Made by a program: the position numbers and the translations under genes. The notes under the pieces were generated by a model that did not search any database, was not told where the DNA came from, and was given only the letters and a program-made list of their open reading frames with translations. This document shows, in pieces, positions 454 to 24,850 of a DNA stretch of 64,000 nucleotides; within the stretch, counting starts at the first letter, position 1, and each line of letters begins with the position of its first letter. The DNA is from Utricularia gibba (taxonomy: Eukaryota; Streptophyta; Magnoliopsida; Lamiales; Lentibulariaceae): positions 124,001-188,000 of the forward strand of contig NEEC01000004.1 of NCBI GenBank assembly GCA_002189035.1, given 5' to 3'.

Positions 454-2206
454 ATGATTTCTCTGGCGCCTCATCCTCTACTGCACTACACAAGAACCGC
501 TGCGGCTTCGGCGGCCGCCCGTAGAATTCTTGCTTCTGCGGCCTATGCGTCAAGCGTTGAAGTCCCTCTCTCCGTTTTGCACTCTTCATTGAGAAAGTCC
601 GTCTGCGCAATGTCTCCAAATCCATCAAATGTTTATAATATTGCTAATTCGGCTGGGGTTTCGGCGGATTTTCAAGAACGTAATTGCTGTTATCTCACAA
701 GGAACTCTTTTCTGAGTGGCGCTGATGAAGGAGTTGGCGAAGGCGGGGAGTGTTCTCTCGTGGTTGTCTCTTTTTATAAATTCGCTGATTTCCCCACTGT
801 GCTGATATGCGAAAGCCGCTGAAGGACCTCTGTGAGAAGATGGTAGCTTTGGGTTTTTTTTTTTTTTTGTTTTGTTTTGATTCTTGTTCTGTTAGCTTTG
901 GGTTGAACATTGGGTGGTGTAGACACATTTTGAACTTATTCATTGTTAGTCCGAAATTGGAATTATGTGCATCTCTAAGCTGATGCCCTCAGCTTGTTTC
1001 AGGAGGTATTATCCTTGCTCCAGAAGGAATCAATGGAAGCATATGTGGAACCCGGGATTCAGTCGAGTGCGTGCTTGCCTTCATCCAATCCGATGAGCGT
1101 CTTAATGGCCTTAGGCTTATTGAGTCGCCAGTTAGTCCGGAAGAAGAAGCTATTCACCACGGGCATATGAATAGCTCTCCTCTAGCTGCAGGCGAAGATG
1201 CCCCGTTTAGGTGGGATCATGTGAGGGTTAAGCTGAAAAAGGAGGTACTTTACTTCGACCCAAAAGATAACCGTTCAGATTTGCTGATGATTGATGCCAG
1301 TCTAAAATTGCTTGTAGATTGTCACACTCGGTATGCCATCCGTATCACCCATTGAGAGAGTTGGAAAGTATGTGAGCCCGAGGGAATGGAATGAATTGAT
1401 CAATGATCCAGATACAGTAAGTACATTAGCCTCGAATGAGATCTTGCATTGTTCTGTAGGATGAATCTTCTTGGATTTTCGAAGCTGATCTGAAGAATTC
1501 GTCACTCAATCTTGACAACCTAGGTTGTTATAGACGTGCGAAATGATTACGAAACTAGGATTGGGAAGTTCAAACGGGCTATTGATCCTTGCACTAGAGC
1601 ATTCAGAGAGTTCCCATCCTGGGTGGATGAACATTTCAAAGTAGATGAGGCTGAAAATCATGCATCTTCACTCTCAAGCGCCGAAGAAAAAGCTCATGAT
1701 ATGGAATCCAAGGTGCCCCGAGTGGCCATGTACTGTACTGGTGGAATCCGCTGCGAAAAAGCTTCAAGCTTTCTCCTAAGCAAGGGTTTCAAAGAGGTAC
1801 GATCTTTGGAAAACTGAACAGGGTTTTTACGGGATGCAAAATGAGATGAGAATACTCTCTGCCCACTCAGGTTTACCATCTACAAGGTGGAATCTTGAAG
1901 TACCTCGAAGAAGTTCCGGAGAAGGAGAGCCTGTGGGAGGGTGAATGTTTTGTGTTTGATAAACGAGTGTCAGTCGACCATGGCCTGGAGCAGGGGACCT
2001 ACAAGCTTTGCTACGGATGCAAGAAGCCGGTAAGTGACGCCGACATGGAAATGCCGGAGTGGGAATATGGTGTCTCTTGCCCGCACTGCTACCACTCAAA
2101 ATCAGTTGAAGAGAAGGAGAGAGCAAGAGCAAGACAGAGACAGTTTGAGAGATGGGGCATCATTGGTGGCCCGGACAAAGGCCGGAAACCAGTGAGAGCA
2201 GAGTAA
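454..2206 (+). CDS. STR8: TrhO/UPF0176-type rhodanese-domain protein, plastid-targeted (STR8-like)
   Basis: Five exons: 454-842, 993-1244, 1318-1416, 1524-1796, 1871-2206; about 449 aa. The N-terminus is Ala/Ser/Arg-rich like a plastid transit peptide. Next comes the UPF0176 N-terminal domain ([37 protein letters not shown]), then a rhodanese domain ([14 protein letters not shown]) with the active-site loop CTGGIR, then a C-terminal Cys cluster (CYGCKKP, CPHCYH). Bacterial TrhO makes 5-hydroxyuridine at tRNA U34; the plant homologue is Arabidopsis STR8 (At1g17850). Its role here is inferred. Oddity: after FADFP at about 793 the frame runs into a stop at 820-822, while the conserved [14 protein letters not shown] continues one frame away (from 795). 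One base is missing near 793-796; no intron fits. Splice sites are standard GT-AG. Confidence 0.88.
793..796 (+). other. Apparent 1-base deletion in STR8-like exon 1
   Basis: Homology continues on both sides of this point but the reading frame drops back by one base. Restoring one base gives a 450-codon open frame over all exons. Family consensus here is FPDHAD, so the lost base may be a G after CCC. Confidence 0.75.
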
Positions 2207-18879: not shown

Positions 18880-19266
18880 CTCAGATTGGGGGATAGCTGA
18901 AAAATCAGCCAGAGACTGACAAGGGAACTTATTAGGGTCGGAGCACGGCGCCCAAAAAGAAAACGCAATAATGCGATTCGCCGGAGCTGGGGACGAAGAC
19001 TTTCAAAATTTGCTGTGGCGGGTGAGTGAAAATCTATCAACCAAAAAAAACAATTGCAATCAGGCCGCACAAAGGACATTCGGCCCAAATGCAATTATAA
19101 GCCCAGATGAGGCCCAAGGAATTCTCGCACTTTGTTCTTTTTTTTTCATTTTCTAAATCTACAAAAGGAGGCGAGCTCTATCCACAACTCCAGGCACGCT
19201 TTAAGAGACTCCAGAAGGTCCATCGTCTTCCACTCGAGGGCGATCTTGATCTGGTTTGACATTGAG
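18880..19266. other. Divergent promoter between MGSCFSKK gene (-) and DJ-1 gene (+)
   Basis: 387 bases separate the two start codons, so regulatory DNA is probably shared. Small frames on both strands lack recognisable content. Confidence 0.5.
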
Positions 19267-20694
19267 ATGGTACCGAGAAGAAAGTACTCTTGTTAGTCGG
19301 CGATTATGTCGAGGACTACGAGGTGATGGTTCCGTTTCAAGCTCTATCGGCTTACGGATTAAAAGTTGACGCCGTTTGCCCCGGCAAGAAATCCGGTGAC
19401 ATTTGTCGTACAGCCATCCATGACGCTCTTGGCCACCAGGTTTTCCATATACTTCGACCAATTGTTTGACTCCATTTCGATTTTGTTCGTCACTGCTCCG
19501 CTTGATATTCTCCTTTCTGCGATGTGCGCAGACGTATTCTGAATCCAGGGGTCACAATTTTAACCTGAACGCTACGTTTGATGAAATAGATCCATTGAAG
19601 TACGATGGGCTCGTCATCCCAGGGGGCGCGCTCCTGAATACCTTGCCATGAATGAATCTGTGTTGACTTTGGTTAAGGAATTCCAGAAATCCGAGAAACC
19701 GATTGCATCCATCTGCCATGGTCAGCTGATCCTCGCTGCAGCTGATGTTGTCAAGGGCAGGAAATGCACTGCTTACCCTGCTGTTAAGCCTGCACTGATC
19801 GCAGCAGGGGCTCATTGGGTAGAACCAGAAACTCTGGCTTTCTGTACGAAAGATGGGAATCTCATAACTGGTGCTACCTATGAAGGCCATCCCGAGTTCA
19901 TTCGCCTCTTCATCAAAGCACTCGGCGCAAGTATATCTGGTTCTGGTAAAAGGATACTCTTTATCTGCGGGGTAAGAATAAAATCCATCAACTGGTTCAT
20001 TCCCATATGTTACCAATTCACTGTCCATGTCTATGCTTCATATGTATCAGGACTACATGGAGGACTACGAAGTAATGGTTCCATTTCAGTCTCTTCAAGC
20101 TCTGGATTGCCACGTCGATTCAGTGTGCCCCGGAAAGAAAGCTGGTGAGATATGTGCAACTGCTGTTCATGACTTCGAAGGTGATCAGACCTACAGTGAG
20201 AAACCAGGCCACAATTTTACGATCACAAAGAGCTTCGACTGCGTGGATGCCTCAACATACGATGGGTTAGTGATTCCGGGAGGACGGGCACCCGAGTACC
20301 TGGCATTGGATGAGAACGTTGTTCAGTTAGTTAGATGGTTCATGGAGTCTCGGAAACCAGTTGCATCCATTTGCCATGGCCAACAGATTTTAGCTGCCGC
20401 TGGTGTTCTGAAGGTGAAGTCTTTTATTCAATTCGGGTGTTTCATGGCTGTGGCTTACAAAGTTGCTGTCTTTTTACATTTTTTTAGGGTAAGAAGTGCA
20501 CCGCGTACCCAGCAGTGAAGCTAAATGTGGTTCTCTCCGGGGCTACTTGGCTGGAGCCGGATCCGATTCACCGGTGCTTTACGGATGGGCATCTGGTCAC
20601 CGGAGCGGCATGGCCAGGCCACCCAGAGTTCATAGCACAGTTCATGGCTCTTCTTGGCCTCAGTGTATCTTTTCGAGGGCAGGCCAAGGTGTAG
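19267..20694 (+). CDS. DJ1D: Tandem-domain DJ-1/PfpI protein (DJ1D-like)
   Basis: Four exons: 19267-19439, 19532-19971, 20051-20413, 20488-20694; 394 aa after repair, the usual length for Arabidopsis DJ1D. Two DJ-1/PfpI domains each have [15 protein letters not shown] or its counterpart, DGLVIPGG, and the nucleophile-elbow Cys in ASICHGQ. Plant DJ-1 homologues have glyoxalase III-type activity on methylglyoxal and protect from carbonyl stress; the localisation here is probably cytosolic. Two frame breaks occur. First, the only ATG in a fitting place (19267) is one frame off from [11 protein letters not shown]; one G missing in ATGG would fix it. Second, at 19622-19626 (GGGGG) domain 1 should read [11 protein letters not shown] exactly as in domain 2, but one G is lacking. 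The 3' UTR meets the snoRNA transcript coming from the other strand. Confidence 0.87.
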
Positions 20695-20846
20695 CTTTGA
20701 TGGCACTTTCCTTCGTCTTGAGAATAAAAATTTACTCCCAGAATAAACATTGATCTTGTTAATTGTCAAAAGGCATCACTGGGTTGAATTTCAAGTTATA
20801 GGAACTACGGTTCCGCATTCCTACATTTCAAGGGTGAAAACCTAGA

Positions 20847-20948
20847 AATGGATCAGATTTCTGGCATGGATTCCTCCAGTTAAGGAGAAAAGTAGTAGCG
20901 CAGTATATTCAGCTTCGATCATTTGGGGAAATAATCGTCATTTCCATT
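20847..20948 (-). ncRNA. Box C/D snoRNA candidate, copy B
   Basis: Read on the minus strand, AATGGA is followed by box C TGACGA (20940-20935). The molecule ends with box D CTGA (20856-20853) and TCCATT, which pairs perfectly with AATGGA as the terminal stem. Length is 102 nt. An internal CTGA after ATGATCGAAG is the likely D' box. The block upstream of D' (ATTTCCCCAAATGAT) is nearly the same as in copy A, so both probably guide the same target. I could not identify the target rRNA site. Confidence 0.65.
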
Positions 20949-20997
20949 AACACGACACAGCATAAGAAACAATCTATCAAAAAAGTGAATAAGGTAG

Positions 20998-21108
20998 AGA
21001 TGGATCAGAATATCTGGCTTGGATTTTCTCCCTAGGAAGAAAATACATAAAGAGCGCTCAGTAATTTCAGTTTCGAATCATCTGGGGAAATACTCATCAC
21101 CTCCATCT
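20998..21108 (-). ncRNA. Box C/D snoRNA candidate, copy A
   Basis: On the minus strand the order is AGATGGA, GG, box C TGATGA (21099-21094), a guide region with ATTTCCCCAGATGATTCG, D' CTGA, and a second region ending in box D CTGA (21008-21005). TCCATCT then pairs with AGATGGA over seven bases. Length is 111 nt. Box C is a perfect match to RUGAUGA. About 50 bases separate it from copy B, to which it is clearly related along its length, so the pair arose by local duplication. A fitting promoter lies upstream (21447-21483). Confidence 0.72.
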
Positions 21109-21446
21109 CCGTAAAAAGGATTCAAAAGAAAAAAAACGAAAAACCAGTATCTTCCAGATCCAGATATCGACAACAAAAACGAGAGAAAAATTTCACCGAT
21201 TCCGACTTTGCTCCTCCGAAACGGCGGAGATCCATTAAAAAGACAAACGGCTGGTTAACAATATAGCGTCGTCTCATACACAACGCCCAATTCAATAACG
21301 GGGCGCTGGTAATCAGTAATCGACGCGGTTACCTGCGGCCTAGAGAGGAGAAAGCGAAAAGAAGGAATACACTACCGCGGCGGCGGATAAGGAATAGCAA
21401 CACAGTAGATTCGAAAGCATGGAGACCTGGAAGCGACGGGGAGAGA

Positions 21447-21483
21447 TTATATAAGCGAAGGCAGCCAGCAGCGGAAACCCTAA
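21447..21483 (-). promoter_or_regulatory. Telobox + TATA promoter of the snoRNA transcript
   Basis: AAACCCTAA (21475-21483; TTAGGGTTT on the minus strand) lies about 20 bases upstream, on the minus strand, of TTATATAA (21447-21454). This pairing is typical of plant ribosomal-protein and snoRNA cluster promoters. The DNA from 21420 down to 21110 would be the 5' part of the snoRNA host transcript. It has no long ORF. Confidence 0.6.
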
Positions 21484-23185
21484 TCTCTTATTCCCGTAGA
21501 TTTGGTACTATTACTTCGCCGCATTTTGGGTAATTTGTTTTTCAACTTTCAAATCATATATATTTTATTTAAAAAAAGAATATCCTCGAAAAAGAGGAAA
21601 AATAAGCCCAAATAAGATGTTGAACCGTTTCTTTTTGGGCTATATGAAGTGTAATGGGCTTCTACATGGGCCGTACGAGAGGACTGGATAAAGAGTTCGA
21701 CATCCCAACCAACGTGGCCCAGCGGGAGTAATAAATAATTCAACATTTCAAACAAAAAAAAGAAGTAATTACAGTCCAACAATAAATAATAAAATACAGA
21801 AAAAAAATCGTGATGGTACATAATAATTAAACATTCATAATAAGTAATTCCCTAAAGTCAAATTGCGTGACAGCCCTCCATTCATAAACAAAAAATCCGG
21901 AGTCCGATACTTGCAGCGCCAAATACTCTAAATGTCGGGGTCAACCCATTTGCTGCTCCCTTAAATACCACAAAATACGAGTGGCCAGGAGTTTTTCCAA
22001 TTAAAGAATTCGGTCTAAACCCTCGTAGGTAAAGAAACGTGTGTGGCTGGAAACCAGGGGCGCAGTGAGGGAACGAGGCAGTGACGTGGCATAAAAGCAC
22101 ATAAAAAGTTCACATGTGGGGCCTCCGATCATAGTGATCAGCCACGTCAGCTCCATCCTCATCATCCAGAACCGCTTTTTCCGCTTTTGGCTCCTCCACA
22201 TGTTCCCATAAATTCCATTGTTCTTTTTTTTTTTCTTTTGGCTTCTGATTTTTGCGGCCGGAGATATTTCTACTCCTCATTAAAAAAACCAAAAAACAAA
22301 ACAAAAACCTGTTGTTTACCACCCAAAACTACAATAACTTTTTCAATTGTGAATTTTTCGGATTGAAATTGTATTTTTTTTCATAGTTTAATTTTAATAT
22401 TATGTAAAACAGTGTTAACTGTGAATCGTCAAACTGTATGTCTGAGGGGGAGCGACCATGGATTTTGAGGTTTAGGTGGGAAAACTGAACGAGAACACAG
22501 AATTAATTACTTAAACAAGGAGCCGAGACTTGAGCCGGGTCCAAGGGCTACCGGCCACTAAAATGATAACACGTGGAGGGGAATTGTGGAGAAACTATAT
22601 TTTTCTTTTTTCCCCCCTGTTTATGGCTAAAGAAAAGTGAAAAGCGGTATGGAGAAAAAAGGACAAGTGACCAGGAAGGGCCACGTAGCCTCAATATGAG
22701 CCACAAAGAAGTGGATTGCCGAAAAAGCCCTCAAAGCATTTCGCTTTTCTGCACTTTGTCTCCGCTGACGTGGAGCCTCTGGGCGTACATATCTTCTCTT
22801 TATTCGCCTGGAGTGTCATCATTTTCTTGCTTCAGCACAATTGTCCGCTTCGTTCTTTCGTTTCTCTGCCTCCGCCAAAACATTTCGGCTTTCATTTTTT
22901 TGGTTCCTACTTTTGGTCCATACCTTTTCCTGATTTTTTAAGGTACTTTCGCTGTTTTTGGAGCTACCCTTCTCAGATCTATCCCGGTCAGGTGTGTTTC
23001 GAGAACAATGTTCTTTTTTGCTGCTTGTTGTGGAGAAATCTTAATGGGTAAAGTTTGGTTTTTCAAGGATCGAGAACAAGGAAAGCAATAGCAATTCAAA
23101 CGGAATCTGCTTTTTGGGAACAGGATTTTGTTCCAGCAAAGGATTTTTTTCAGTGGGAAACTTGGAGTTGTATTCGTCTGCTGCC
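21484..23185. other. Intergenic, upstream and 5' leader of the REVEILLE gene
   Basis: AT-rich up to about 22560. A perfect G-box CACGTG lies at 22570-22575, and several CACGT/ACGTGG cores nearby (22085, 22142, 22682, 22767) fit a light- or ABA-responsive promoter. From about 22900 to 23180 the DNA is T-rich and probably transcribed leader, perhaps with an intron. Frames here lack recognisable content. Confidence 0.5.
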
Positions 23186-24850
23186 ATGACTACTCAGGTG
23201 GGTTTTATGGATTATGAACTTGGTTTGGTTTGTGGGTGTTTTCGAGGAGTAGCTTTCATTGCTTTTATAGATTTTTTCCTTCGCTTTCTGCTCTGGATCT
23301 CTGTTGAACTTTGCAAGAATTGGGCTTGTGCTTCTTCGTTTTGTAGATTCCATTTCTGGGATACGCCTATTTTAGCCTGTAGAAGCTAGGCTGTGGAAGT
23401 TTCCCCTGCAATTAGGCTGTAGAAATTTTCGAATCTTGCTGAAATTCTTTTGCCTTCTGATTGTCCGATTCAGGAACAACAGAGCTTTGATGGATTTGAG
23501 GCAACATCGGCCGTAATCCGATCAAAAGATCAGTCGAATCCTAGCGATGTTTTCTCTCCCAAGGTTAAAATCATTTCTAGAAAAGTTGATGATTTCATTC
23601 AAGTTTGCCCTTGATCTGTTTCTAATTCTTTTTTCGACGTTTGTTTGTTCAGGCGAGAAAACCCTATACCATAACTAAACAAAGAGAAAAATGGTCTGAT
23701 GAAGAGCATAGCAGATTTATCGAGGCATTGAGGCTTTATGGCCGCACATGGAGGAAGATTGAAGGTTGTTATATGAATGCTCTGTTGTTTTGAAAGAGAT
23801 TTCTATGATCTAATCTGTGATTGATCTGATTCGACAGAGCATATTGGCACTAAAACTGCAGTGCAGATCCGAAGCCATGCTCAGAAGTTCTTCTGCAAGG
23901 TTGTACCTTTATTCATCGCCATTGTTACATGCTGCCAAGTCTCTGTTGTGTTTGTCATTATTGATGTCTTTATTTTCATCTTTGTGATCAGATGGTTCGT
24001 GACTCTAATATGGGCGATGCCGATCATGTGGACATAATTGAAATACCGCCTCCTAGGCCTAAGAGGAAGCCAGTGCATCCTTATCCTAGGAAGCAAAATG
24101 CTTCCAGTAAACCAGGCTTAGCAGTGGAGAAACCAGTGAAATCGGCTTTGGAAAGTCCTCCGGAGCTGGAGAATCAGTCCCCTAAGTCTCTGCTATCTGC
24201 ATTAGCTTCAGAGTCATCCGGTGGGACTGATTCATTTGTGCCTAACAGTAGTCCATCTTCAGCCACATCACCCCTTGTCAACAAGATTGGCGACGTTTCC
24301 TGCTCCGGAGTTCTGCGTGATGGGGAGGATGAACACTCAAGCCTTGATGATCAAATGCTTGAGGTAATCGATCACACATGGCTTCTTCATCACCCAACAG
24401 CCATTTTGATGTTACTGTTTCCATGTTTAGCAGGAGCCAGTAACAGAAGATCCAAATGAATCAAGTGGGAAGTTCCTCAAACTGTTTGGCAAGACATTAG
24501 TCATCGCTGAAACCGGTGGACCATCGAGTTCCATAGCCATATCATCCCATGAACAAGCAGCGGCCTCGATTCTGATTCCCGTGAGAGTCATTCCTCTGAA
24601 ATTCGCCATGATGAACGAGACCCATATGGATGTTTGCTACCCCATTGCCTTGCCATGGTTGACGCTCTGCGCCAATTCCTCTACACTGCCTTGCGAGGAT
24701 ACCAAAGAGCAGTCTTCCACTGACTCGAATTCTGATTCAGCCTCTGGTACAACCCAACTCTCACGAAAGGCCAGCAAGACCCCAACCACAAATTCAAGGA
24801 AAGGCTTCCGGCCATACAAAAAGATGTTTACCAGAGCAGGATCCCCATGA
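23186..24850 (+). CDS. REVEILLE-type (CCA1/LHY-like) single-MYB transcription factor
   Basis: Six exons: 23186-23197, 23474-23563, 23653-23764, 23838-23899, 23992-24363, 24434-24850; 354 aa. The single MYB repeat (about 40-92) reads REKWSDEEHSRFIEAL, YGRTWRKIEEHIGTKTAVQ, with the signature SHAQKFF. A Pro-rich segment follows at once (IIEIPPPRPKRKPVHPYPRK), the hallmark of the RVE1/RVE2/RVE7 and CCA1/LHY group. The C-terminal KGFRPYKKMF corresponds to the conserved GFVPYKRC block of RVE1/2/7, so I place it in that subgroup. These proteins bind the evening element and link clock and auxin or chlorophyll pathways. The tiny first exon (4 codons) is normal for the family. The frame is intact. Confidence 0.9.

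Follow-up and report, generated by a model that had tools for sequence, protein, structure and literature searches.

On the minus strand of a 64-kb stretch of Utricularia gibba DNA (contig NEEC01000004.1; this whole stretch of 64,000 nucleotides is referred to as the window) two related blocks lie in tandem, about 49 nt apart (Table 1). Both were identified as members of the snoZ103 family (Rfam RF00149), which we take to be a curated family of box C/D snoRNAs from plants. When the whole window was scanned with Rfam 15 at the curated cut-offs, the RF00149 model matched over its full length both copy 2 (20848-20947, 85.4 bits, E 4e-16) and copy 1 (21000-21106, 74.7 bits, E 2.3e-13), each exceeding the family cut-off of 44 bits, and no other match was obtained in the window besides these two loci. 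With covariance-model E-values of this size for a 64-kb window, chance can be ruled out as the source of the resemblance. A genome-wide search with the same model gave at least two loci in the 100-Mb assembly (the counts may be lower bounds), both of which are the tandem pair described here.

An earlier note on this DNA, made without database searches, had proposed two tandem, homologous box C/D snoRNAs of a family that its author did not recognise, and had suggested a search of Rfam. The search was run and assigns both blocks to snoZ103, so that the proposal is confirmed in its substance, and the question of the family is answered by one that is known and not by a novel one; the tandem pair consists of new members of a family already described. 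Alignment to the RF00149 consensus showed that the family blocks UUUCCCCAGAUGAUCGA and UACUGNGC, as well as CAAGCCA before box D, are present. Copy 2 departs from them in having CAUGCCA and one altered base in a block, and copy 1 in having one inserted U (1 nt) in the conserved block and another insertion before box D.

Table 1. Features of the tandem snoZ103 unit and of its upstream region (positions are those of the window)
Feature	Position	Strand	Remark
snoZ103 copy 1, box C/D snoRNA	20998..21108	-	111 nt including terminal stem; RF00149
snoZ103 copy 2, box C/D snoRNA	20847..20948	-	102 nt including terminal stem; RF00149
Box C TGATGA, copy 1	21094..21099	-	sequence
Box C TGACGA, copy 2	20935..20940	-	sequence
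UUUCCCC, family-conserved antisense element, copy 1	21084..21090	-	complementary to 25S GGGGAAA at G2396; putative function
UUUCCCC, family-conserved antisense element, copy 2	20925..20931	-	sequence and consensus
AUGA, proposed box D', copy 1	21078..21081	-	+5 would lie opposite 25S G2396
AUGA, proposed box D', copy 2	20919..20922	-	putative
CTGA (box D' of the earlier note), copy 1	21067..21070	-	possibly in degenerate box C'
CTGA (box D' of the earlier note), copy 2	20909..20912	-	possibly in degenerate box C'
Internal hairpin UUUUCUUCCUAGGGAGAAAA, copy 1	21024..21043	-	single-sequence fold
Internal hairpin of different sequence, copy 2	20871-20890	-	single-sequence fold
CCAAGCC upstream of box D, copy 1	21016..21022	-	complementary to 25S GGCUUGG, 17 nt 5' of GGGGAAA
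CCAUGCC (broken CCAAGCC), copy 2	20863-20869	-	sequence
Box D CTGA, copy 1	21005..21008	-	sequence
Box D CTGA, copy 2	20853..20856	-	sequence
TATA box TTATATAA	21447..21454	-	sequence
Telo box TTAGGGTTT	21475..21483	-	sequence; motif definition from PMC4660826
Five Site II motifs (TGGGCY or complement)	21605..21721	.	at 21605, 21636, 21655, 21667 and 21716

Each copy has the box C, the box D and the terminal stem that together define the layout of a box C/D snoRNA, and a check of the minus strand bore out the boxes, stems and coordinates of the earlier note. Elsewhere in the window this layout of boxes and stem was encountered only once; mononucleotide shuffles gave an expectation of 0.28. The box C of copy 2 reads UGACGA, a form accommodated by the RF00149 consensus UGAuGA, in which the U is variable (lower-case). 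The terminal stems, AGATGGA/TCCATCT (7 bp) in copy 1 and AATGGA/TCCATT (6 bp) in copy 2, differ by one pair that has changed from G-C to A-U on both sides, and copy 1 has one extra outer pair. The compensatory change that had been claimed for these stems is real and amounts to one fully compensated pair, a single event in two sequences, which is weak evidence when taken alone.

The order of the blocks is the same in both copies and in the Rfam consensus, namely UUUCCCC, AUGA, UCGA, UACUGNGC, a GCCAGA element and CUGAUCCA box D with the stem, and UUUCCCC-N2-AUGA is invariant in all three. The CTGA previously taken for box D' is present in both copies, but it is not conserved in the Rfam consensus, which has CUAUGA at this place. 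The AUGA found slightly upstream of CTGA, which both copies share unchanged with the consensus, is likelier to be the box D', and CTGA or the UGA-containing stretch that follows could be part of a degenerate box C'. In single-sequence folds each copy forms an internal hairpin, located ahead of the D guide and after the middle of the RNA. The folding energy of copy 2 was low (z -3.1), whereas that of copy 1 was not unusual (z -1.0). C/D RNAs need little structure beyond the kink-turn and the terminal stem.

The deviations listed above raise the question of whether one or both copies could be decaying, non-functional pseudogenes that followed the tandem duplication. The TGACGA box C and the altered D guide (CCAUGCC) of copy 2 could be read as signs of decay, as could the two insertions of copy 1, the first of which falls in the conserved block. 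Nevertheless, the boxes and the invariant block are retained in both copies, as are a sequence able to fold into a hairpin and a terminal stem that pairs, compensated pair included; moreover the U of box C is variable in the family consensus and promoter motifs are present, and we regard loss of function as a most improbable reading of this pair.

Upstream of the copies lie a telo box and a TATA box, as the earlier note had reported, together with a cluster of five Site II motifs which it had missed. Site II motifs are absent from most 120-bp stretches of the window, and few stretches have five or more. Plant snoRNA clusters are documented to have a promoter that combines telo box, Site II and TATA box (PMC4660826), and all three elements of such a Telo/Site II snoRNA gene are found here upstream of the pair. 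In Arabidopsis and rice, polycistronic snoRNA genes likewise have a telo box, a Site II cluster and a TATA box ahead of closely spaced snoRNAs; those clusters are mixed, whereas the present unit holds two copies of one family and no other Rfam snoRNA occurs in the window. Since the two copies are only about 50 nt apart behind these motifs, the unit is most simply interpreted as a dicistronic snoRNA gene, and we consider it very probable that we are dealing with a plant-type dicistronic gene for two snoZ103 box C/D snoRNAs.

A different gene arrangement would have both snoRNAs lodged in introns and spliced out of a noncoding host transcript starting at the same telo-box/TATA promoter, without any dicistronic precursor. 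On inspection, a donor-like CAGGTAA that such a transcript could use lies between copy 1 and the TATA box (near 21329-21335). However, nothing recognisable as a conserved exon or as coding sequence follows immediately downstream on the minus strand, and a convergent DJ-1/PfpI gene comes next; we hold the intronic arrangement to be unlikely. The DJ-1/PfpI gene itself (window 19266-20700, plus strand) has two tandem domain copies (Pfam PF01965, E 3.9e-28).

For the dicistronic gene, the motifs suggest that RNA polymerase II would transcribe the unit from the telo-box/Site II/TATA promoter and that the precursor would be cut and trimmed to yield the pair of snoZ103 box C/D snoRNAs. Each of these, closed by its terminal stem and by the C/D kink-turn, would be expected to assemble the usual C/D snoRNP with L7Ae/15.5K, NOP56, NOP58 and fibrillarin.

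Among the papers searched, none that names a target for snoZ103 was found, and candidate targets were looked for by complementarity. The assembly contains only 408 nt of its own 18S, at a contig end, along with diverged fragments of rRNA, and no intact 45S coding unit turned up in it. The readable rDNA is a spacer with IGS repeats (locus L035, 4702-9930) that ends 408 nt into the 18S, and a search of the viral contigs with two 18S patterns gave no match. As the assembly is without intact rRNA genes, the targets used were the Arabidopsis 18S, 5.8S and 25S rRNAs and not the sequences of this genome. Comparison of these with the published Nm residues (PMC8053127) gave agreement at 35/35 positions of 18S (offset 0) and, under a single offset, at 61/74 positions of 25S, the first third of which shows small shifts. 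The U2, U4, U5 and U6 targets were taken from this genome. At the locus L003 (same contig) the snRNA genes for U4 (761-909, minus strand) and U6 (1501-1603, plus strand) lie about 590 bp apart in divergent orientation.

A methylation guide was taken to be one that forms at least 9 consecutive bp with its target under the D+5 rule, and with the snoR38 of this genome as positive control the known site G2816 was found with 13 bp. No duplex of snoR38 quality was obtained between the snoZ103 guides and the rRNAs or snRNAs, the best at a known Nm residue having 7-8 bp. The earlier note had named a lack of complementarity to rRNA or snRNA among the findings that would count against its reading, and here the outcome is divided: a strong guide duplex is absent, but one residue known to be methylated is matched over 7 bp. 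Several other matches were discarded. The D guide of copy 1 can form 8 bp, with a mismatch at +5, with the segment AACUGGCUUG of the peptidyl-transferase centre, at a site that is not a mapped Nm and with a pairing that is broken in copy 2. Matches to U2 and U4 were restricted to one copy, the U4 match falling on a stretch that resembles an Sm site, and a 17-mer match in viral contigs was taken as chance. Apart from these discarded matches, the conserved block of copy 1 can form 14 bp, 5 of them G-U, with 25S 267-280 (domain I), by means of an element that is not placed before box D and at a level within chance.

Another match concerned the pre-rRNA spacer, and would make of snoZ103 an orphan or processing snoRNA whose family-conserved UUUCCCCAGAUGAUCGA base-pairs to the 5' ETS (external transcribed spacer) and aids early cleavage, in the manner of U3 or U14. 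When all tested targets are considered, the ETS site UUUGAUUGUUGGGGAAAG, about 360 nt upstream of the 18S, gave copy 2 its best near-continuous match (17 bp interrupted by one bulge), and likewise the consensus; in the readable rDNA spacer TTGGGGAAA occurs once only, and against shuffled ETS alone the frequencies were 2/1500 and 5/1500. Once the whole snoRNA and all targets are corrected for, however, p becomes 0.09 for copy 2 and 0.23 for the consensus, while copy 1 has its best match elsewhere (p 0.77). Moreover, the plant ETS evolves fast and is therefore unlikely to be what holds a block constant throughout the family. The 5' ETS was rejected as a target on failing the global correction, and a processing role of this kind appears to us quite improbable.

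Among the weak matches, the one of greatest interest makes use of the invariant block and concerns 25S G2396. With AUGA as box D', the +5 position faces this residue in copy 1, copy 2 and the consensus, and the duplex of UUUCCCC with GGGGAAA comprises 7, 7 and 8 contiguous Watson-Crick pairs, respectively. In Arabidopsis, 25S G2396 is a mapped Nm (PMC8053127 Table 1). An extra 7-bp pairing with GGCUUGG, which starts 17 nt upstream of the start of the main site, is open to CCAAGCC of copy 1 and to UCAAGCC of the consensus, and is broken in copy 2 (CCAUGCC). Among shuffles that kept AUGA in place, 22, 36 and 29 of 1000 (about 2-4%) reached a main pairing of 7 bp or more at one of the known sites plus 7 bp or more of extra pairing. 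The candidate had been found post hoc, and we consider the pairing suggestive only. The main part of the duplex has 7 bp with +1 and +2 unpaired, and falls below the at least 9 bp of 100/104 assigned Arabidopsis sites (PMC8053127).

In Arabidopsis, G2396 already has SnoR28 as its assigned guide, through a main pairing of 7 bp and an extra one of 8 bp (PMC8053127), and snoZ103 would resemble SnoR28 in its candidate site and in having a 7-bp main pairing accompanied by an extra one. The Rfam family snoR28 (RF00355), which may or may not correspond to the SnoR28 of that publication, is distinct from snoZ103; its homologue in this genome occupies a separate locus (L036, 1501-1578), is without UUUCCCC and gave no fit to G2396.

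Our best guess for a target of the snoZ103 family is G2396 in helix H73, near the peptidyl-transferase centre. In the mechanism that we tentatively propose, UUUCCCC next to the box D' AUGA would pair with GGGGAAA in H73 and place G2396 opposite +5, and CCAAGCC upstream of box D would pair just 5' of that site. By analogy with other snoRNAs, this could guide 2'-O-methylation of G2396 and/or shield H73, the root helix of domain V, in early 60S assembly; the alternative outcome would be an orphan snoRNA without an rRNA target. To the action of snoZ103 at 25S G2396/H73 we give slightly less credence than to its contrary.

A precedent for such a role is offered by snR190 of budding yeast, snR107 of fission yeast and human SNORD12, which have been described as orthologues (PMC8536666, PMC11971394). 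These carry one antisense element ahead of D', which targets the guanosine of H73 (G2395 in yeast, G2396 in Arabidopsis), and a second one before D, and snR107 has a stem-loop after C'. In snR190 (box B) and snR107 (ASE2) the second element pairs with domain I of the 25S. Budding yeast snR190 is a chaperone and not a methylation guide, whereas its fission yeast and human counterparts guide methylation (PMC8536666, PMC11971394). The layout of snoZ103 is similar, with a candidate D'-side element that may be aimed at the H73 G and a putative second element before D, and its predicted internal hairpin recalls the stem-loop of snR107. On the other hand its pairing is weaker (7-8 bp), there is no convincing domain-I partner of the box B kind known from snR190, and no U14 is found in the window.

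No match of the copies to the Rfam SNORD12 or snR190 models was reported at E up to 5; snoZ103 is not filed with these snoRNAs, although it may work as they do. That it is their plant counterpart, holding 25S H73 (G2396) in the early pre-60S, with tandem copies that have diverged in the second antisense element, is conceivable but on the whole doubtful. As genes, the two copies are ordinary additions to the plant snoRNA catalogue and their value lies in the question of the target. If H73 is indeed where snoZ103 acts, then plants, fungi and animals would have in common a snoRNA serving the assembly of the peptidyl-transferase centre, and a conserved plant family for which no described function was found would gain a testable one.

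Elsewhere in the window a second dense Site II cluster was observed at 270-390, with six motifs in 120 bp, which is perhaps the promoter of another growth-related gene. Finally, an open frame on the plus strand (23825-24037) was seen by inspection to contain KTAVQIRSHAQKFF, typical of plant CCA1/RVE-like MYB proteins.
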